This document shows positions 4,797 through 26,504 of a stretch of DNA of 26,504 bases, piece after piece. This stretch comes from a virus. The position numbers and the translations under genes are program-made. The notes below the pieces were generated by a model, which saw nothing but the letters and a program-made list of their open reading frames with translations, was not told the DNA's origin and ran no database searches. The stretch covers positions 3,671 through 30,174 of the IMG/VR virus record IMGVR_UViG_3300029787_000012. The stretch is one strand, 5' to 3'. Within the stretch, counting starts at the first letter, position 1; every line of letters starts with the position of its first letter.

Positions 4797-5386
4797 TAAC
4801 AGCTCTTATTCAAGTCCTCAGCCATATTTCCACCGATCTCTGCACCTTGATTGCCACCAAACATTGCTAGCCAACCTGCAGCAACCCAACCAACAAAGGG
4901 AATAGAGGAAACAGCAGGAGCAGCAGCAGCACCAACGCTAGTCCCAACCAGTCTCCCAGTTCCTTCTGCACTTCCGACTGCTTTGATACAGGCAAGGTCT
5001 TTCTGTGACAGTTCTGGGTTATCCTTGACAAACTCATCAAGAGGTGCAATCCATGATCTTTGATTAGATACTGGAGCTCCTTGGTTGATCTGACCGTCCA
5101 TGTAGTACTCTTCAACAACCTTTGTTGTTTCTGTTGCTAGTCCTAAGAAACCACCTTTCTCTTTGATGTCCTTAGTTATGTACGCTGTCTTGGGATCGTT
5201 AGCAGTATAACTGATCTTGTATCCTTCCTTATCTGCTTGAACAACATAAGAAGTGTAAGGACCTACAGGTATGTCTAGGTCTGGTAGTTTATCGTTATTT
5301 CGTCTGCTAACCATTCCGATCATACCAATGTGAGTCACACCCACTGCTAATCCTAATATAGCCGCAAACCATTTTATAGGTGACAT
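4796..5386 (-). CDS. Membrane-anchored hypothetical protein
   Basis: 196 residues, family not recognised. It has an N-terminal hydrophobic anchor (residues 5-26, KWFAAILGLAVGVTHIGMIG) followed by RR, then a soluble middle part. A Gly/Ala-rich hydrophobic stretch at about 144-178 (GTSVGAAAAPAVSSIPFVG) has the look of a glycine-zipper membrane segment. Two cysteines occur, at 133 and the C-terminus. The start ATG 5386 lies inside the 3' end of the TauD-like gene (13-nt overlap), and a CTAAATA late motif sits 20 nt upstream within that gene. Coupled to the downstream proline-rich gene. It could be a virion component that inserts into the host membrane, but this is inference. Confidence 0.7.
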   Translation of the reverse strand: MSPIKWFAAILGLAVGVTHIGMIGMVSRRNNDKLPDLDIPVGPYTSYVVQADKEGYKISYTANDPKTAYITKDIKEKGGFLGLATETTKVVEEYYMDGQINQGAPVSNQRSWIAPLDEFVKDNPELSQKDLACIKAVGSAEGTGRLVGTSVGAAAAPAVSSIPFVGWVAAGWLAMFGGNQGAEIGGNMAEDLNKSC

Positions 5387-6405
5387 GATAATATTATCTC
5401 TGTCTTATTTAGGTATTCTCTGTGAAAGGATTCTTGGAAGTATGGTCGATATGGTTCTGGTTGTATGTTTGTATAGTCATAGGCATACCTGTAACACAGT
5501 CTATCATTGATAGCACCCAGTCTTCTGTGCTGTACAATACTATTATCAAATAGTAAAAGATCTCCATCTTCTTTATACCAATGATCGTATGTGTATGGTT
5601 CCAATCCTTTTCTTATCTCTGACAATACTAACTCTGCATCATGATCACTCATACCTTTGATACCTGTGACAGTATTGAAACTATAGTGTAATCCTTTGAT
5701 GCAACCAGGACTTTGAATTACTAATGGTATCTCAGTATCTGGGAAAGGACACATATTTTTATACATCAAATTGTCCTGCATATCATTTAAACCAGGATTA
5801 ATCTTGCCAGGTGTGAAGTTATGAATCAATATCATTTCATCTAGTTCACTACGAAAACTCTCTGAGACCCCCTCATAATAGTCTGTAGTGGTCATAAAAC
5901 CTGTTGCACTCCTAGTTGTACCTTTGACCCCTAGTAATCCAATGCCAGGTGTAAAACATATATCACCACTTTCATTGCTGTGCCATAGCAATTCACCCTC
6001 AGCAAAGATTCCCATCCTCTTTCCATTCTTCTTCATTCCAGTAACATTTAACATGTTACCAAATTGCATAGGATGATTACCAACTCTTATATTATTAAAC
6101 TCTCTGCATATATCTTTGTCTATCGGATCTACATCGTCACTATTCAATATGTTTTCAAAATGCCTATTTGCCCACGGATACTTATTGTACAGATACGCAA
6201 CCCAATTGAGACGATCATCTCCCCACTTCTTCATCAAATTATAAAACGTCGCACGATTTAAGTTAGCACCTCGTATGATGGTAACTAACGTCTTAAGGTG
6301 CAACCTTCCTATTTCATTCCATTCATCGTCTGTGATATGGTTTAGATCTACATCATCAATATAGATACCAAAACTACCAAGACCATTGATATTTGATATT
6401 CTCAT
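5374..6405 (-). CDS. TauD/TfdA-like 2-oxoglutarate dioxygenase
   Basis: 343 residues from ATG 6405. An in-frame ATG at 6423 would lie inside the upstream gene's terminator T-run, so the later start is preferred. The chain follows the TauD/TfdA layout: an N-terminal GSFGIYIDDVDLNHITDDEW region, the first iron motif near 142 (ELLWHSNESGD), and the second block LLLFDNSIVQHRRLGA with His293 and Arg294, plus Arg303/306 as candidate 2-oxoglutarate ligands. The usual H-x-D reads H-S-N here, so the carboxylate ligand is missing or supplied by the next residue, Glu145. Family members hydroxylate small molecules using Fe(II), O2 and 2-oxoglutarate. The substrate cannot be told from sequence. Confidence 0.8.
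   Translation of the reverse strand: MRISNINGLGSFGIYIDDVDLNHITDDEWNEIGRLHLKTLVTIIRGANLNRATFYNLMKKWGDDRLNWVAYLYNKYPWANRHFENILNSDDVDPIDKDICREFNNIRVGNHPMQFGNMLNVTGMKKNGKRMGIFAEGELLWHSNESGDICFTPGIGLLGVKGTTRSATGFMTTTDYYEGVSESFRSELDEMILIHNFTPGKINPGLNDMQDNLMYKNMCPFPDTEIPLVIQSPGCIKGLHYSFNTVTGIKGMSDHDAELVLSEIRKGLEPYTYDHWYKEDGDLLLFDNSIVQHRRLGAINDRLCYRYAYDYTNIQPEPYRPYFQESFHREYLNKTEIILSCHL
5406..5412 (-). promoter_or_regulatory. Candidate late promoter (CTAAATA) inside the TauD-like gene
   Basis: The minus strand reads CCTAAATAAG, 20 nt before the ATG at 5386. It has the same core and spacing as the site before gp20. It would start an independent transcript for the two membrane-associated genes. Confidence 0.45.
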
Positions 6406-6424
6406 ACACTTATATATTAGCATA

Positions 6425-15669: not shown

Positions 15670-17352
15670 TTACTTATAGTCCCACATATAACTACGGTCA
15701 CCATACTCATCTAACTTCCATTTCTCTTGGTCTGACTCGTTCATATCAATACTCCAAACAGTTCCACTGTCATCAACTATAGTTTCATCTTCTAACCCAT
15801 CTACTATAAAACCAAATGGTGCCATATCTTGTTCTATCTGGTTCTTTTGCTCTTCATATATCCTTCTTCTAATGTCTTGATCTGTTAATTCTTTAAAATA
15901 TTCCTGTTGCACTAACCAAGCAAAAATAACCAAACACATTACAAGATCGTCATTATATCCTTCATCTGCTTCAAATGATTGCTTGTTTTGTATGAACGTA
16001 GTCAACTCTGCTACGATGTTATAATCCTTAACAAGTAACTTATCATCTTCTATTAATGTCTTGAGGTTTGAACATCCTTGTGCTTTGACAGTCTTACTCA
16101 TCTTCACACCCATCTGTGTTTTGTTACCTGAGAATCCCTGTCCGACTATTTGCCCTGCTCTACCACGCATAGCACACATCAATACATTTTCATATTCTAT
16201 ATCGTAAAATAAACTTGAAGCAACTGCCTCTCCTATATCATTGACCTCTATCAATACATGTGCTTTATTATAATTTGTTGCAACGTTGTAGATAACGTTA
16301 GGGAATAGCATTGGTCTAACATTCTTATCTCTATACTTTGCTACTAATCTCCATGGTGCGTGAGTGATATCTATTACCACAAAGGCAGAGTAATCCTGTG
16401 CGAGACCACGAGATACGTCAACACATATAATATAATCGTGATTAGATATTGGTTGTTCGTATATATCAAGAGATCCATTTGTTGTTAAAACATCATCGTA
16501 GGTCAGTGTTCTAAGTTTAGATGCAGTGATTAGAGTATCAACAGATCCTAAAAATTCACACTCAAACTCCTGCGTGAACTGTCGTTCAGATGTATTAGCA
16601 ATAGTTGTCTCTTTCCACTTCGCATCTCTACCTGGCACTTTTGACCAATGTACTTCAGACCAAGCATATCCATTTCTACCTTTCTGTGCATCTACCCATA
16701 ACTTATAGAAATGGTTCATTCCATTTGGTGTGGAAATAATGATGACTTTTGTGGATGTACCAGAAGTAATAGTAGGATAAACGGAACTAAAGAATTGTTC
16801 TGCAATATGATTAGGTATAAACGCAAACTCATCGAGGAAGATGATGTTGAACGACATACCTCGGACAGCAGATGCTGAAGTAGATGCAGCGAGAATCTTT
16901 GATCCATTCTCTAACTCCATACTTCCTTTGTTATAAACGACAATACCTTGTTGTATCCAAAGAGGTAATTGTTCGTATGCTAGTTGTAATCTACCAAGTA
17001 AATCTCTAGCAGTAGATAACTTGTTAGCAAGAATACCAACGTTAACGTTATCATTAAAAAGTATATAGTGTAAAAGGTATGATACGCAAGTAGTAGACTT
17101 ACCAGTCTGTCTTGGTAGTTTTGCTATATTAAATCTATGTTCGTGAAATGATTCTATAAGTTCTTCTTGAAAATCCCACATCTTAAAAGGGACTATACCT
17201 TCATCAAGAGATATAATCTTAATATAATTCCTAGCAAAATATACAGGATCCTCTTTACACTTGAGGTATTCCTGTACTTGATGCTGAGTAAAATTAATTG
17301 CAGTCCCAACTTTTTTAAGATTGGGGTTGCCTAGATATGCATCGGTTGACAT
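15670..17352 (-). CDS. gp17: Terminase large subunit gp17
   Basis: 560 residues (T4: 610). DNA-packaging motor ATPase and headful nuclease. Walker A is LPRQTGKSTT (79-88), Walker B is IIFLDEFAF with Asp174-Glu175, and the coupling motif is STPNG at 207-211. The RNase H-like nuclease domain follows: Asp312 in ICVDVSRGLAQDYSAF, Glu369 in LIEVNDIGEA, and the late Asp pair in YNDDLVMCLV. All catalytic positions look intact. The ATG overlaps the stop of the oxygenase gene by one base (TAATG), so translation is coupled. Unlike the T4 order, gp16 is five small genes away. Confidence 0.97.
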   Translation of the reverse strand: MSTDAYLGNPNLKKVGTAINFTQHQVQEYLKCKEDPVYFARNYIKIISLDEGIVPFKMWDFQEELIESFHEHRFNIAKLPRQTGKSTTCVSYLLHYILFNDNVNVGILANKLSTARDLLGRLQLAYEQLPLWIQQGIVVYNKGSMELENGSKILAASTSASAVRGMSFNIIFLDEFAFIPNHIAEQFFSSVYPTITSGTSTKVIIISTPNGMNHFYKLWVDAQKGRNGYAWSEVHWSKVPGRDAKWKETTIANTSERQFTQEFECEFLGSVDTLITASKLRTLTYDDVLTTNGSLDIYEQPISNHDYIICVDVSRGLAQDYSAFVVIDITHAPWRLVAKYRDKNVRPMLFPNVIYNVATNYNKAHVLIEVNDIGEAVASSLFYDIEYENVLMCAMRGRAGQIVGQGFSGNKTQMGVKMSKTVKAQGCSNLKTLIEDDKLLVKDYNIVAELTTFIQNKQSFEADEGYNDDLVMCLVIFAWLVQQEYFKELTDQDIRRRIYEEQKNQIEQDMAPFGFIVDGLEDETIVDDSGTVWSIDMNESDQEKWKLDEYGDRSYMWDYK

Positions 17353-17930
17353 TAGAATACTACTCCGAATACTATACTGTATCTATAGATGTGGGGTTCC
17401 ATAGGACCTAATCCTCTATGTGGTAAATGAGATGGGAAGATAATTATTCTACCTGGCACATAATCATGTTCTTCTAACATTTCAGTCTTATCTTCATTAA
17501 AGATTTGAAACTTACCACCCCATTCATCTTTCCATACTGGATTAGGCATTACCATTATAGTATGACCAGACTTATCTGTAGGACCTTCAGAATCTATATG
17601 TAATGATCCATCACATCCAGAGTGTTGTAGATTAACATCTATTCTCTTTAAGTAAACATTTCTAGTATTGACATTTATCAATTCACATAGAAACTCAAAC
17701 ATGCTATAAAAATTTTTAGCATGTACATTGTCCACATAGTCTATAAAATTAGGATGACTCCTACTGAAAATTGTCGAACCAAAAAGTCTGTGACTACCTT
17801 CTTGATGGTATGGCCACGTATGTGAGTTCGCTACATTACAAGCTCTATATCTTAACTTACCCTGTACCAAATCATAAAGTTCGTGCAAGTATTTTGCATC
17901 GAACTTATCATCATAAATTTCACAAATCAT
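17352..17930 (-). CDS. 2OG-Fe(II) oxygenase, prolyl-hydroxylase type
   Basis: 192 residues. The double-stranded beta-helix core has an intact iron triad: His111 and Asp113 in GSLHIDSEG, and His171 in FPSHLPHRGLG. Arg183 in IYRYSIVF is the likely 2-oxoglutarate ligand, and WGGKFQIFNED (137-147) is the usual GGxL-type strand. Enzymes of this group hydroxylate proteins or small molecules with O2 and 2-oxoglutarate. The gene is coupled on both sides (ATGA overlap with the 54-residue gene, TAATG with gp17), so it is made with the packaging motor. Modification of a virion or host protein is a reasonable guess; the substrate is unknown. Confidence 0.9.
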   Translation of the reverse strand: MICEIYDDKFDAKYLHELYDLVQGKLRYRACNVANSHTWPYHQEGSHRLFGSTIFSRSHPNFIDYVDNVHAKNFYSMFEFLCELINVNTRNVYLKRIDVNLQHSGCDGSLHIDSEGPTDKSGHTIMVMPNPVWKDEWGGKFQIFNEDKTEMLEEHDYVPGRIIIFPSHLPHRGLGPMEPHIYRYSIVFGVVF

Positions 17931-20610: not shown

Positions 20611-21948
20611 TTATAAGTTTCCTGCTATTCCAAATGGGTTTCCTTCACTAAAGTCCATAATGTCATCACCTAGAGATTCAAAAGTTACACTCTCTGAGTA
20701 TTTAGGATCAGCGGTTGCCTGTTCATTTCTATTATCTAGAATCATAGTAGCACCCGAAGTATCACCTACCATGGATTCTCCTATAACAAATGAACCAGTT
20801 GGGGACTTAAGTTTGACCCAACCTTCCTGAGCATCCCACTCAACTAGTTGAGCAGTTGCTGCAGATGTAGCACCAGTGACTTGTTCTGGTACTGCGAATG
20901 TACCAGTTAGACCAGAAGGTGCAGCAGTAAATGCAACAGTTGCACTTGTGTAACCACTACCACCGTTAGTTATATCTATGAGTTTTACACTCTTGTAACC
21001 AGATCCACCTGATAAAATGTTAATTGAAGTTAATACTCCATTAGTAAATGTGGGGACTAAAGTTGCATTAACTCCACCAGTATCAGGTGCTGTTACATTT
21101 ATAGAAACTCTGTCCTCATCATAGTCTGCACCTCCGCTTACTATGTTAACAGATCTTATCTGTCCTTCTTTTACAACTCCTCTAATCACAGCAGATGCAG
21201 TTGGTGAACCACCACTAAGAGTTATATTAACTAAGAATGCTTCTGCAGTTGCACCCGTGCCATCTCCTGTGATAGTTATTAGAGGTGTTTCATTATAACT
21301 GCTACCATTATCAGTAATAAAGATATTACTCAATGCACCACCATCTAGTACAGAAGTGCCTGTTGCTGTGATACCAGCAGTTGTGAGATAGTAATGCTTA
21401 ACAGTGTAACCGTAATCAACAATCTCATCATCTCCAGCAAATACATCGCCTTGCTCGTCGCTGTATTCAAATAATTCTGCTCTAAGTTTGTAGACATATC
21501 CTTTACCTAATTGATAGAATGGTTCTTCATGCTCTACGAATTTAATTTCAAAGTAGTTAGCAGTAAGTGGTAAGTATATTAGATCACCTTCTTGTGGTCT
21601 TTCTGGAGCTTTATAATCTTTGTCTAGTAAAAGAAATTGTGATATAAGATCTGTAAATCTTTGAGATGAAACGACCATAGTTATTTCATCAGTTTGTGCT
21701 ACACCAAACTTTGTAAGTAAATCTCCACCACCTTGGAAACCATCAAAGTTTTCCATATATGCTTCTATAATATATGAGTCATTAAATTGACCTATGACCT
21801 CTTCATTAAATACACCATCAGTTAACATTATTTCTCTAGGGCAATAGAGAATATCCATACCAAACATCTTAATGAATTCCTCAGTAAGATTTTGCTGTAA
21901 GAACTGTTCGTTCCTAGTACCATTTGTGAAGTAGGTGTTTCTTGCCAT
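20611..21948 (-). CDS. gp14: Neck protein gp14, with inserted beta-rich repeats
   Basis: 445 residues against 256 in T4. With gp13 it forms the neck that closes the filled head. The N-terminal 185 residues are typical: YFTNGTRNEQFLQQNLTEEF, MDILYCPREIMLTDGVFNEE, SYIIEAYMENFDGFQGGGDL and FVEHEEPFYQLGKGYVYKL. The C-terminal tail (SVTFESLGDDIMDFSEGNPF) is also typical. Between them, about residues 188-405, lie at least three glycine-rich repeats of the form I-x-I-x-x-x-G-x-x-Y: NIFITDNGSSYNETP, SVNIVSGGADYDEDR and SINILSGGSGYKSV, plus a shorter DITNGGSGYTSATV. These are probably surface-exposed beta structure. The ATG overlaps the gp13 stop (TAATG). Confidence 0.93.
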   Translation of the reverse strand: MARNTYFTNGTRNEQFLQQNLTEEFIKMFGMDILYCPREIMLTDGVFNEEVIGQFNDSYIIEAYMENFDGFQGGGDLLTKFGVAQTDEITMVVSSQRFTDLISQFLLLDKDYKAPERPQEGDLIYLPLTANYFEIKFVEHEEPFYQLGKGYVYKLRAELFEYSDEQGDVFAGDDEIVDYGYTVKHYYLTTAGITATGTSVLDGGALSNIFITDNGSSYNETPLITITGDGTGATAEAFLVNITLSGGSPTASAVIRGVVKEGQIRSVNIVSGGADYDEDRVSINVTAPDTGGVNATLVPTFTNGVLTSINILSGGSGYKSVKLIDITNGGSGYTSATVAFTAAPSGLTGTFAVPEQVTGATSAATAQLVEWDAQEGWVKLKSPTGSFVIGESMVGDTSGATMILDNRNEQATADPKYSESVTFESLGDDIMDFSEGNPFGIAGNL

Positions 21949-22763
21949 TATCCTATCATGTCTAGAGGTGGCATTTCATACTGTGTAAGCATTTCAGTCT
22001 CTAACTTTGCTACCTTTTCTTTACCCTCGTTGTATATAAACTCACCATTCATTGTAATTCCACCTGGCAACTGTGCTCCTTGAAACTTTATTAAGTTAGT
22101 ACCCCACTGCCTTTGAATCAATGCAGTCACATATCTCTTTAACCATACGTCATTATAAACATCCTCAAATTGTGTAGGATCAACTGCACGATAACATTCG
22201 AGAACTAAGAACTGATCTGCAGGAACATCAGTCTTAAAATCTAAATCAAGATATAATCTATCACCACGTCTTTGAAATCTAATCTGTTTCTGTCCCTCTA
22301 ACAGATAGTAGATATCTTCTAATCTTCTATTGACCATTTCATATGTAAGAATCTCTGTCTGTGTAAGATCCCAAAGGTCATTCAATCTCCACTGATATCT
22401 AACATCAAATAAGTTTGTGACATTCTTAGATACAAAATCAAAACACTTAATAACAGATGTCACGTATGGTGGCATCTTGATGTAGTTGTTCTGCTCTTTG
22501 AATGTGACAGTCTGACCAGATGATGTTCCAGAACTTACAGTGGTATCAGTATCTGTTGTCATATCATCCAACATCAACTGACTGTACTGTACTTTTAAAT
22601 GGGTTCTGATGTAACCATCCATATGTCTTTCATTAAAAAACTGGATAGCATCATCCACGAGGTCATTGATTTGATCATCCTCTATGTTTATTTCTAGGAC
22701 TGGTGCACCGTTTTGACGCAATGCATAATCTATAAGTCCTTGTCTGGTTGATGGGGAAGCCAT
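21948..22763 (-). CDS. gp13: Neck protein gp13
   Basis: 271 residues (T4: 309). Head-completion protein that binds the portal after packaging and supports gp14. Typical blocks are TRQGLIDYALRQNGAPVLEI with NIEDDQINDLVDDAIQFFNE at the N-terminus, then IKCFDFVSKNVTNLFDVRYQ, YLLEGQKQIRFQRRGDRLYL, VLECYRAVDPTQFEDVYNDV, WLKRYVTALIQRQWGTNLIK and FQGAQLPGGITMNGEF. The start at ATG 22763 is one base after the stop of the giant Ig-domain protein, so the two are translated together. Firm identification. Confidence 0.95.
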   Translation of the reverse strand: MASPSTRQGLIDYALRQNGAPVLEINIEDDQINDLVDDAIQFFNERHMDGYIRTHLKVQYSQLMLDDMTTDTDTTVSSGTSSGQTVTFKEQNNYIKMPPYVTSVIKCFDFVSKNVTNLFDVRYQWRLNDLWDLTQTEILTYEMVNRRLEDIYYLLEGQKQIRFQRRGDRLYLDLDFKTDVPADQFLVLECYRAVDPTQFEDVYNDVWLKRYVTALIQRQWGTNLIKFQGAQLPGGITMNGEFIYNEGKEKVAKLETEMLTQYEMPPLDMIG

Positions 22764-22764
22764 G

Positions 22765-25700
22765 TTAGGTAGGATTGATGTTGAATCTAATTCTTACATA
22801 GTATGTAGTATTAGCACTTAAGTTTACTGCACCAGGTAAGGTATAAGATAGTAAGTTTGTTGAGTTACCAAGAGATTGGTGAACGATAGTTGCAAAGGTA
22901 TTTGCAGGAGAAAATTGCCAATCACTAGATGAATGTGTGTAACCAGTCTTCATCTGTATACTAGCAACATTTATTGTTGGGTTGAATGCTGGTGTAATAG
23001 TTTGTATATCTGGTTGATCAACTAATGGAGTTGTAAAGTTTACTGCTGATGAGAATGCACTCTCAAGACCAGCGTTATCTCTAAATTTAACCTGTACAGA
23101 GTATGCGGTATCAAAGTCTAGAGTTCCAGATGGAACAGTGATAGATGTTTTATTACCAGTATCACCACTAGCAAATGTGTCTGCTGTGTTATACACAGTG
23201 ACGTTATCACTAACTCTTCTTATTCTCCAGAAACTAGAGAAGTGAACTGATCCAGAATACTCTACAACATATGCTGATGTATTGATTACAGGTTGTCTAG
23301 AGAATGTTTTACTGGTATCAGTATCAATAACAGGAGTGATGGAACTAGGTGCAGATACGAACTCAGACTCATTAACAGTGAGTGTTGCTGCATTCGATGT
23401 AACTGTTGTAGCATTTGGATTACTTAATATACAACGGAATTGTTCTGAGGGGTTTGTTGGATAAACTGTAGCGGGAGTTGTATACGTTGCTGTGTTAGCA
23501 CCATTTATATTACTCCAAGTTGCTGCATTATCAACAGACTTCTGCCACTGATATGTAATAACATCACTTGTTATTGATGCAACTATGTTAAGTGTTGCAG
23601 TCTGTCCTTCAATAACACCAACGTTTTGTGGTTGTGTGCCGATTGATATGACACGTAAGATTGTTAGTAAAGCAAATGTAGATGTGATAGGAGCAGATGA
23701 ACCTACAAGAGATACAGTACATGTATAACGGTCATTGTTGTCTGCAGCAAACGTGGTTGTTGGAGTTGTATACGATGCACTCGTTGCTCCTGCTACCTGA
23801 GTATAATTGTTTCCACCATCATCAGATCTATTCCACTGGTATGTTGGAGTTCCACTACTAGATGTGCTTGATACTGAGAATGTTCCAGTACCACCTTCGT
23901 TAACAGTTGTGTTAGATGGTTGTGCAGTAATAGAAAATGTTCTTACAACTGTAAGATCAACATCATTAGTATATGCCGAAGCAGATGCTCCAACAGCATC
24001 TATCTTACAACGATATGAGTCTTGATGATCTGCAGCGTATGTAGTTGCAGCAGTTGTATATGATGCAGAAGTTGCTCCCGCAACTGTATTCCAAGTTGAA
24101 TCAGCTGTATTCAAAGCATTACCTTGACCTGTATGGAAATGACACCAGTAATAAATGGTGCCAGTCGCACTGCTAGGTATATTCCATATTACTTGACGAG
24201 TAGTAGCAGCGACAAATCCACTAACATAATTTGCCATAGTTACAGTAACGCCATCCAACTTATAGGTAACACCTGTATTGTAATGAGTTCCACCAGCTAA
24301 CTCTCCATCTAAAGTTGTACTGAGCATCAATGGATGATGTTGATTATTGTAATTAGCATTAGAAGAATCTGACTGATCAAAAGTAAAAGTGTGTCCCCTA
24401 TATGCACTAAGGGCAGGTTTTTCTAAACCAAATAAGTAAAATACACCTGTTGCTTGACCACCTACTGTGTCAACTCCAACTGTAACGTTAATAACTTTAT
24501 TACCATGATTAGATTGCTCCCACTGATATGTGACACTAGGACTATGTGATGACTGTCCAGCAGCACCACCTCCACCACCACTAGGAGTATCAAATTGTTC
24601 TGTCTCGAATGATGATGAAGCTGCGTTACCACCAACAGGTGCCATGGTAACATCACCGAGTGTACTGAATGTTGCAGTGGAACCTTCATTTACTGAAGCA
24701 CTGTTTGGTTGAGTTGATACAACCACAGTTACAGTTTCTACTTGTAATGTAGCAACGTTAGACGGTATAGTTGTTGCACCATTTGCTGATAATAAACAAC
24801 GGTATTGATAAGAATCGTATGCTGTAGTTAATGTAGGAGTTGTATAAGTTACTGTTGTACCACCACTTCCCTCAGATACATTAGACCATGAAGCACCAGA
24901 GGTTATTGATACTTGCCACTGGTATGTAATGTCTCCTGCATCATTATCAGATGTAGTTGCAGCAACACCAAATGATGATGTACCACCAACTGCACCAGTT
25001 ATATTAACTGGTTGAGATGTTACATTGATTGTTCTTTGTACTAAGTTTCTTGCAGGATTAGTGAATACTTCAGCAGCACCAGCAACGTTTAATTTACATC
25101 TATAGTAGTCACCGTAGTCATTGTCGTATGATGTACTACCTGTAGTATATGTTGTACTATTAGCACCACCTATATCAGCGTATGTTGTGCCATCTCCATT
25201 CTGTGATATCTGCCATTGATATATAACAGTTGCAGCATCTTTTGTACTAGCAGCAGTGGTAAATGATCCAGCTGCGGGTGCCATTGGTTGAGAATTACTT
25301 GGTTGTGTGTCTACAGTAATTACACGAGTTACAGTAAGTGTTGCAGCAGTAGTTGTGCCTGGTGCAATAGATGTTGATGAAGACATCTTACATCTGTACT
25401 GATAAGTGTTGAGTGAGTATTGATCATCAACACTTAATGTTGACAATGTTGCACCACTATAAAAACCACCGTTAGTTACGTTAGACCAACCAGCACCACC
25501 ATTACTTGAGTATTCCCACTGGTATAAGATAGTAGAACCATCAGAACTTGTAGCAGCAACAGGACCAAAGGTAGCATTGATATTTGCTCCAGCTTCTATT
25601 GTTGTAGATACAGGGTTTCCTGTAACAGTTATTAGAACACCAGTTCCTGTTGTAGTGAATGAGTATGCACGAGCATTTTGAGTTACGTTTTCAGTAACAG

Positions 25701-26504
25701 TAAAGTTGAAAGTAGTATCAAGATAATCTGATGTTACAGTTCCAGATAACTCACCTGTTGAAGTATTGAATGTCAATCCAGATGCACCTAGACCATCTCC
25801 ACTAAGTGTATACGCTTCAAATGTAGGTTCATTAGCAAAAGTTGTTCCAGCAAGTCCTAATTGCACACTAACAGTTGCACCGTTTGCATATGGACTACCA
25901 TTTAATGCACCACTGGATGTTGTCCATGTTACACTGCTATCAACATATGGGAAGAATGCACCTATTTTTTTAGTGAGTGTAGAACCAGTTCCTGAATAAT
26001 CAAAATCAACACCTGAATCTAATGGGTAGTATGCTACGTTGGTATATGAACCTGTACCAGCTGCTTCTTGTGCATCTGTCTGCGAACGTAATGTAGTTGA
26101 TGTATAGACTACGCCATCAATACTTTCGTGGGTTTTTGCTTCTGGATCTATTAGTGCTAAGTAATTATTTGAACCACCACCTGTTGTACCAGCAGTAGCA
26201 TTTGAACTATTCTGTACAGTAATACTATTATTAACTCCACTTTCTGCTTGTATAGTTAACCATCCAGATTGTGCTAAACCTGAGACATCTATACCACCAA
26301 CAGTAATACCACCTGATCCACCAGATGCTGATTGAACTGTAACAGCTCCATACATTGAGTTATGGGCAGAGCATTGGTAATAGTAAGTTCCTGTAGCGTT
26401 TGGTGTCCATGATAGAACAGAGTTTCCAGTGGCACCTTGTCCTGTTGCAGCTGGTGTGTTTACTTGATTACCAGTTCCAGTTCCTTGAACTGTTTTAAAG
26501 TATG
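22765..26504 (-). CDS. Giant Ig-domain virion protein (5' end outside the window)
   Basis: At least 1245 residues; the frame is open to the right edge, so the true start is missing. Numbering from the Met at 26355, the layout is: the end of a cupredoxin-like module (TGTYYYQCSAHNSMYGAV, crossing that Met); a putative-Ig He_PIG-like domain at 155-243 (GLTFNTSTGELSG); Ig-like repeats at 240-343, 344-439, 440-540, 541-803, 804-899 and 900-994, each with YQW near the middle and an (Y/F)RC or YTC strand near the end; and two fibronectin-like segments at 1001-1110 and 1111-1196. The fourth repeat is split by a cupredoxin-like insert. Tight linkage to gp13 suggests a neck, whisker-like or other fibre protein. 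Attachment to host or particle surfaces is inference. Confidence 0.85.
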   Translation of the reverse strand, partial: YFKTVQGTGTGNQVNTPAATGQGATGNSVLSWTPNATGTYYYQCSAHNSMYGAVTVQSASGGSGGITVGGIDVSGLAQSGWLTIQAESGVNNSITVQNSSNATAGTTGGGSNNYLALIDPEAKTHESIDGVVYTSTTLRSQTDAQEAAGTGSYTNVAYYPLDSGVDFDYSGTGSTLTKKIGAFFPYVDSSVTWTTSSGALNGSPYANGATVSVQLGLAGTTFANEPTFEAYTLSGDGLGASGLTFNTSTGELSGTVTSDYLDTTFNFTVTENVTQNARAYSFTTTGTGVLITVTGNPVSTTIEAGANINATFGPVAATSSDGSTILYQWEYSSNGGAGWSNVTNGGFYSGATLSTLSVDDQYSLNTYQYRCKMSSSTSIAPGTTTAATLTVTRVITVDTQPSNSQPMAPAAGSFTTAASTKDAATVIYQWQISQNGDGTTYADIGGANSTTYTTGSTSYDNDYGDYYRCKLNVAGAAEVFTNPARNLVQRTINVTSQPVNITGAVGGTSSFGVAATTSDNDAGDITYQWQVSITSGASWSNVSEGSGGTTVTYTTPTLTTAYDSYQYRCLLSANGATTIPSNVATLQVETVTVVVSTQPNSASVNEGSTATFSTLGDVTMAPVGGNAASSSFETEQFDTPSGGGGGAAGQSSHSPSVTYQWEQSNHGNKVINVTVGVDTVGGQATGVFYLFGLEKPALSAYRGHTFTFDQSDSSNANYNNQHHPLMLSTTLDGELAGGTHYNTGVTYKLDGVTVTMANYVSGFVAATTRQVIWNIPSSATGTIYYWCHFHTGQGNALNTADSTWNTVAGATSASYTTAATTYAADHQDSYRCKIDAVGASASAYTNDVDLTVVRTFSITAQPSNTTVNEGGTGTFSVSSTSSSGTPTYQWNRSDDGGNNYTQVAGATSASYTTPTTTFAADNNDRYTCTVSLVGSSAPITSTFALLTILRVISIGTQPQNVGVIEGQTATLNIVASITSDVITYQWQKSVDNAATWSNINGANTATYTTPATVYPTNPSEQFRCILSNPNATTVTSNAATLTVNESEFVSAPSSITPVIDTDTSKTFSRQPVINTSAYVVEYSGSVHFSSFWRIRRVSDNVTVYNTADTFASGDTGNKTSITVPSGTLDFDTAYSVQVKFRDNAGLESAFSSAVNFTTPLVDQPDIQTITPAFNPTINVASIQMKTGYTHSSSDWQFSPANTFATIVHQSLGNSTNLLSYTLPGAVNLSANTTYYVRIRFNINPT
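23374..25638 (-). repeat. Six tandem Ig-like repeats coding region
   Basis: Each unit of about 95-100 codons follows the pattern QP(S/N)...G...F...YQW...W/Y...(G)A..(A/T)(S/T)YTT...(Y/F)RC...N.A.L.V. They are diverged in sequence, so they are old duplications and not recent DNA copies. The units run 25638-25327, 25326-25039, 25038-24736, 24735-23947 (interrupted), 23946-23659 and 23658-23374. Confidence 0.8.
24118..24504 (-). other. Cupredoxin-like module inserted in the fourth Ig repeat
   Basis: About 129 codons that replace the short loop between the YQW strand and the NTVAGATSASYTT strand. The insert has HTFTFDQSDSSNANYN, HHPLMLSTT, a TGVTYKLDGVTVTM strand and the end YYWCHFHTGQG. His, Cys and His occur where blue-copper folds place ligands. 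Whether metal is bound is not known. Confidence 0.6.

Follow-up and report, generated by a model that had tools for sequence, protein, structure and literature searches.

A candidate exchangeable cupredoxin cassette nested in an Ig-like repeat of a virion-type protein of a marine T4-like cyanophage

A large virion-type protein encoded in the analysed window (26,504 nucleotides of a viral genome record) carries a cupredoxin-like domain inside one loop of its fourth Ig-like repeat. The same loop is empty, or occupied by a different cupredoxin, in closely related phages. We are fairly confident of the overall explanation, namely that this domain is an exchangeable nested cassette, likely copper-binding and likely exposed on the virion.

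The domain is encoded within an open reading frame on the minus strand (22765-26502) that is open at the window edge. The window contains the C-terminal 1245 residues; the 5' part lies beyond it, and the full frame (G000:C1:26435-32341) encodes 1968 amino acids in a virus record of 90,647 bases. The protein is a homolog of T4-GC_519 (phrog_27200, E 0 in the PHROG search) and is 58-63% identical to the T4-GC_519 proteins of Prochlorococcus phages P-HM1, P-HM2 and MED4-213, where the gene order is the same. It is followed immediately by a gene for a gp13-like neck protein (head-tail adaptor Ad2; 21948-22763, minus strand), in the same order as in loci L001-L003, and then by gp14, gp15, terminase, tail sheath and portal genes. 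The presence of a T4-GC_519 homolog beside this set of genes points to a T4-like cyanophage close to the Eurybiavirus isolates. Other matches of the protein are to Peptidase_S8, Ig-like and Copper-bind-like domains and to head/tail families of PHROG. The latter, together with the annotation of a P-RSM6 homolog as a structural protein, make it a putative virion protein; virion proteomics data for it were not found in the open-access literature. Identification as fibritin (wac) was considered and dropped, as no fibritin family of Pfam or PHROG matched and only the position and the domain swapping are alike. T4 likewise has wac ahead of gene 13. Identification as a plain tail fibre was dropped as well, for want of family matches.

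Several further features of the protein and its neighbourhood were observed. The N-terminal third of the protein, beyond the window, is a subtilase (Peptidase_S8, E 1.3e-25; L011:1858-7737) with intact Asp, His and Ser motifs (VIDTG, GHGTH, GTSFSAP), and this protease is flanked by two cupredoxin-like copies. Residues ~190-340 of the gp14-like neck protein (20611-21948) match baseplate wedge and tail fibre families, and this middle region is perhaps another inserted module. By PHROG matches, the window also contains a taurine catabolism dioxygenase-like gene (5374-6423) and an endonuclease V-like gene (17352-17930).

The original prediction was that a full domain separates two strands of repeat 4 that lie close together in other repeats. 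The YQW strands start at residues 327, 428, 527, 659, 888 and 984 of the window part of the protein, and the YTT strands at residues 452, 553, 815, 911 and 1007. The distance between the two is about 20 residues in repeats 5 and 6 and about 155 residues in repeat 4. The motifs HHPLMLSTT (24339-24313) and YYWCHFHTGQG (24153-24121) were found at the predicted positions of the minus strand, read from 26502. The YQW and Y-x-C strands characteristic of the Ig fold recur along the protein, and Ig_3 matches it with E 5e-5, under the gathering score.

Comparison with homologs lacking the insert bears out the domain-in-domain arrangement. In P-HM1, P-HM2 and MED4-213 about 130 residues are missing exactly between SVTYQWE and ATSASYTT, and both halves of the Ig repeat are conserved around this one clean gap, so that the absence falls in one loop of the repeat and not between domains. 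In MED4-213, SVTYQWEKSDNGG is directly followed by GSWNPIG, whereas in the window SVTYQWEQSNHGN and STWNTVAG are separated by about 130 amino acids. The distance from YQWE to ATSASYTT is 147 amino acids in the window and 13-14 in the empty-site homologs. By this comparison the enlarged loop is a little wider than first noted, at about 24516-24076. Repeat 4, all on the minus strand, is composed of a first half ending in the SVTYQWE strand (24517-24735), the enlarged loop of 147 amino acids with the nested cassette (24076-24516), and a second half (ATSASYTT...YRCKID, 23938-24075). The core of the cupredoxin-like domain (GNKVINV...TGQGN) occupies 24118-24504, corresponding to residues 667-795 of the window part. 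A second, unrelated expansion of a repeat-4 loop was observed at ~24540-24630; it is Gly-rich, has pLDDT below 50, and is conserved in relatives (SSSFEVDQFDTPSGGGGG).

Modelled alone by AlphaFold2 with 53 related sequences, the insert forms an independent beta sandwich (pLDDT 95.1, pTM 0.89), as anticipated. In the model of repeat 4 together with the insert (pLDDT 83.8), Ig strands are located both before and after it, and among solved structures this model matches Ig proteins and rusticyanin/McoA. The segment is almost certainly a nested homolog of cupredoxins.

The assignment to cupredoxins is supported by the four-ligand set and by transitive homology to plastocyanin and pseudoazurin. In a structure search of the insert alone (Foldseek against PDB), the first 30 matches were blue-copper or multicopper proteins, but they were weak, with E about 0.02 (0.019 for the best) and query TM-scores of 0.36-0.50 among the blue-copper matches. 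A fold class drawn from this search alone was rejected as too weak a proof. No Pfam family matched the insert, and both phmmer and the insert profile (A2) produced only chance-level matches in PDB. Since sequence searches of PDB with the insert remained at chance level, a profile of sister copies was needed. This profile (A5), built from aligned shorter sister copies from marine phages, matches pseudoazurin (E 2.2e-4) and plastocyanin (E 5e-4) in PDB with the His and Cys-x2-His motifs in register. It also matches copper nitrite reductase and, less strongly, amicyanin. The insert profile in turn matches the A5 profile with E 2.4e-37. The plastocyanin family TIGR02656 was found in the best sister copy (E 1.9e-5), and Pfam Copper-bind also matches some sister copies.

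The segment is not a chance similarity, as it is matched by the structural protein of P-RSM6 (54% identity, E 7e-37), by 230 phage records below E 1e-5, and by other marine viral contigs in which it is 79-100% identical. In BFVD, the same fold is found across cyanophage virion proteins. The tested pattern occurred in just 13 contigs from ~85,000 cellular species genomes, all of them marine MAG or SAG records, and these contigs are probably phage-derived. Within the cupredoxin (blue copper) superfamily, the cassette falls in a large marine-phage branch whose domains serve as modules of virion proteins. The cupredoxin-like modules of a baseplate wedge (phrog_708), a tail fibre (phrog_30742) and the structural proteins in BFVD are of the same domain family, and relatives with Gln as the fourth residue also occur in other tail-type proteins. 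However, those of phrog_708, phrog_30742 and BFVD are arranged in series or between other segments, whereas the cassette is polymorphic and sits nested within an Ig loop. With the type-1 blue copper proteins (plastocyanin, pseudoazurin, amicyanin, rusticyanin), to which it is homologous by profile via the sister copies, it shares a predicted beta sandwich and the register of His, Cys-x2-His and axial Met or Gln. Those proteins are stand-alone electron carriers, whereas the cassette is built into a large protein of virion type; its middle region is longer, and its TM-scores to solved structures do not exceed 0.5.

The four predicted copper ligands are the second His of HHPLM (residue 723, 24334-24336), a conserved column that aligns with the His of plastocyanin; the Cys of YYWC (residue 787, 24142-24144); the second His of CHFH (residue 790, 24133-24135); and an axial Gln (residue 793, 24124-24126), replaced by Met in most sister copies, all on the minus strand. 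Gln is also the fourth residue of stellacyanins, and the short Cys-x2-His-x2 spacing is that of amicyanin. Among 147-149 distinct copies, the quartet HCHM is found in 82-86 and HCHQ in 30-32. When copies are limited to those below 90% identity (116), 92 retain Cys together with the second His and 21 have lost the pair; three keep only Cys and none only His. When corrected for ancestry, joint loss leaves four supported pairs, three concordant and none discordant, which is not significant at this low power. These counts are suggestive of Cys and His being kept or lost together as one functional unit.

Altogether, the virus record has five cupredoxin matches, at least three with Cys and His intact. 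One is a non-nested copy in the same protein, of which the C-terminal part (26341-26502, minus strand; YYYQCSAHNSM, axial Met) is cut by the window edge and matches Pfam Copper-bind at the sub-threshold E 0.036. The N-terminal copy of this protein (G000:C1:31649-31882, residues ~150-235 of the full frame) has lost Cys and His (LYFYNVTTAGM); P-HM1, P-HM2 and MED4-213 retain both there. Elsewhere in the same phage, an intact copy with Cys-x2-His-x3-Met (G000:C1:53457-53699) is found in an ORF of 2426 amino acids, and a degenerate one (G000:C1:76701-76919) in an ORF of 4266 amino acids.

The existence of ligand-less copies, one of them in the same protein, means that the cupredoxin fold can serve without metal. 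One could thus suppose that the cassette is a pure scaffold or adhesin that holds no metal in nature, its ligands retained through recent ancestry or because folding requires them, and the fact that the cassette can be wholly absent fits this as well. However, this sits poorly with His, Cys and His being invariant in all aligned nested copies while the Gln-type and Met-type inserts are just 34-42% identical. Moreover, copies that retain Cys nearly always retain the second His, and in these the fourth residue is almost exclusively Met or Gln, which occupy the axial position in natural type-1 sites. We consider a metal-free scaffold unlikely, and copper binding by the mature domain probable on the pattern of its residues. 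With the complete type-1-like set (His and Cys-x2-His-x2-Gln), the domain would most likely bind one copper ion, which would stiffen and stabilise the small sandwich.

The occupancy of the repeat-4 site was surveyed in 52 distinct relatives gathered through the conserved C-terminus. The site is empty in about 32 of them (L127 being one), contains a Gln-type cupredoxin in 18, and a Met-type in two. On a tree of the flanks, with the insert left out, at least eight changes of state are needed, and at least four are forced by strongly supported branches alone. The nearest backbone, L030, is 98% identical, and its insert is only 63% identical to that of the window; the nearest insert comes from another phage, L013 (84%, with a backbone of 77%). 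At the DNA level the window and L030 are 94-100% identical over most of the gene, drop to 73-75% across the insert, and recover at once. L085 has a Met-type cupredoxin in the same loop, though its C-terminus is 94% identical to that of the window, and L110 lacks the insert outright, with 85-99% identity over most of the flanking DNA.

Synonymous divergence follows the same boundaries. Between the window and L030, dS is 0.54 in the insert and 0.07 in the flanks, and between L035 and L036 it is 0.78 and 0.06, respectively. The pattern is inverted between the window and L014 (0.18 in the insert, 0.86 in the flanks). Neither simple divergence nor positive selection was accepted as the reason for the lower identity, as dS rises too. 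The raised dS excludes selection at the protein level alone, and the direct reading is that a divergent allele has been imported through homologous flanks. The alignments show the Ig loop behaving as a docking site, where homologous recombination between the conserved Ig sequences on either side removes, adds or replaces the cassette. From such comparisons, we have little doubt that cassettes are exchanged by recombination.

Most of these loci are metagenome contigs, and the isolates P-HM1, P-HM2 and MED4-213 all have the empty site, as they would if the mosaic states were assembly chimeras and the insert an ordinary inter-domain module. However, the occupied site recurs in many separate samples and at many levels of divergence, in frame and in the same loop; three other contigs carry the insert at 100% identity; and one occupied copy is located on a contig of 189,106 bases (L038). 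An assembly artefact is extremely improbable.

The original prediction placed the putative metal site on the outside of a fibre. This is not supported, as the gene adjoins that of the neck protein gp13. Because of this adjacency and the resemblance of the protein to head/tail decoration families, the cassette would most likely project from the neck or collar or from some other exposed region of the virion. The position next to gp13, the head/tail PHROG matches, and the parallel with the modular, Ig-bearing fibritin make a decoration role, or one at an exposed neck or collar, plausible. Fibritins (wac) of T4-like phages undergo modular swapping and can carry Ig domains (PMC3797505), and the likeness lies in exchangeable domains of an environment-facing protein. 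However, fibritin swaps its C-terminal end, mostly in the distant past (PMC3797505), whereas the unit swapped here is a domain lying within an Ig loop, and the swap occurs between phages that are nearly identical. Exchangeable tips of this kind would alter weak contacts with host surfaces, an effect that has been proposed for fibritins bearing Ig domains. The cassette may thus have a role in host-surface contact or in virion stability; the host-contact role, argued by analogy, is offered tentatively.

A further possibility is that the cassette is redox-active, so that copper-loaded virions pass electrons, or scavenge or deliver copper, at the host surface during entry. The full type-1-like ligand set with the short, amicyanin-like spacing in most copies and the several cupredoxin copies per phage would agree with this. 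On the other hand, no partner protein is evident, most relatives lack the cassette, and the open ocean contains little dissolved copper. As the cassette can be wholly absent, no essential redox function hangs on it. Related cyanophages do carry cargo genes of electron transfer, namely PTOX and the plastocyanin gene petE, an auxiliary metabolic gene (PMC3037559). The fold is the same blue-copper one; however, PetE, at about 110 amino acids, is a metabolic protein that stands alone, whereas the cassette forms part of a virion-type protein. A redox role is quite improbable, and the reading that we retain is an exchangeable, exposed cassette that likely binds copper.

Cupredoxins, Ig domains of phages and modular swapping are each already known. 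Searches of the open-access literature found no earlier account of cyanophage virions with cupredoxin modules, and what appears to be new is the combination of a nested, polymorphic docking site for cupredoxins with a widespread family of virion-type cupredoxins retaining intact type-1 ligand sets. Blue-copper domains are known as electron carriers, and their copies in virion-type proteins of phages suggest metalloproteins on virions, while the exchange of cassettes between otherwise near-identical phages suggests a precise site of swapping at the level of domains. It is conceivable, though rather doubtful, that the virions of cyanophages abundant in the ocean bear redox-competent blue-copper domains, with Met-type, Gln-type and copper-free versions exchanged at a dedicated docking site in an Ig loop. 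If so, the chemistry of metal sites, and not the shape of receptors alone, would be among the things that phages exchange.
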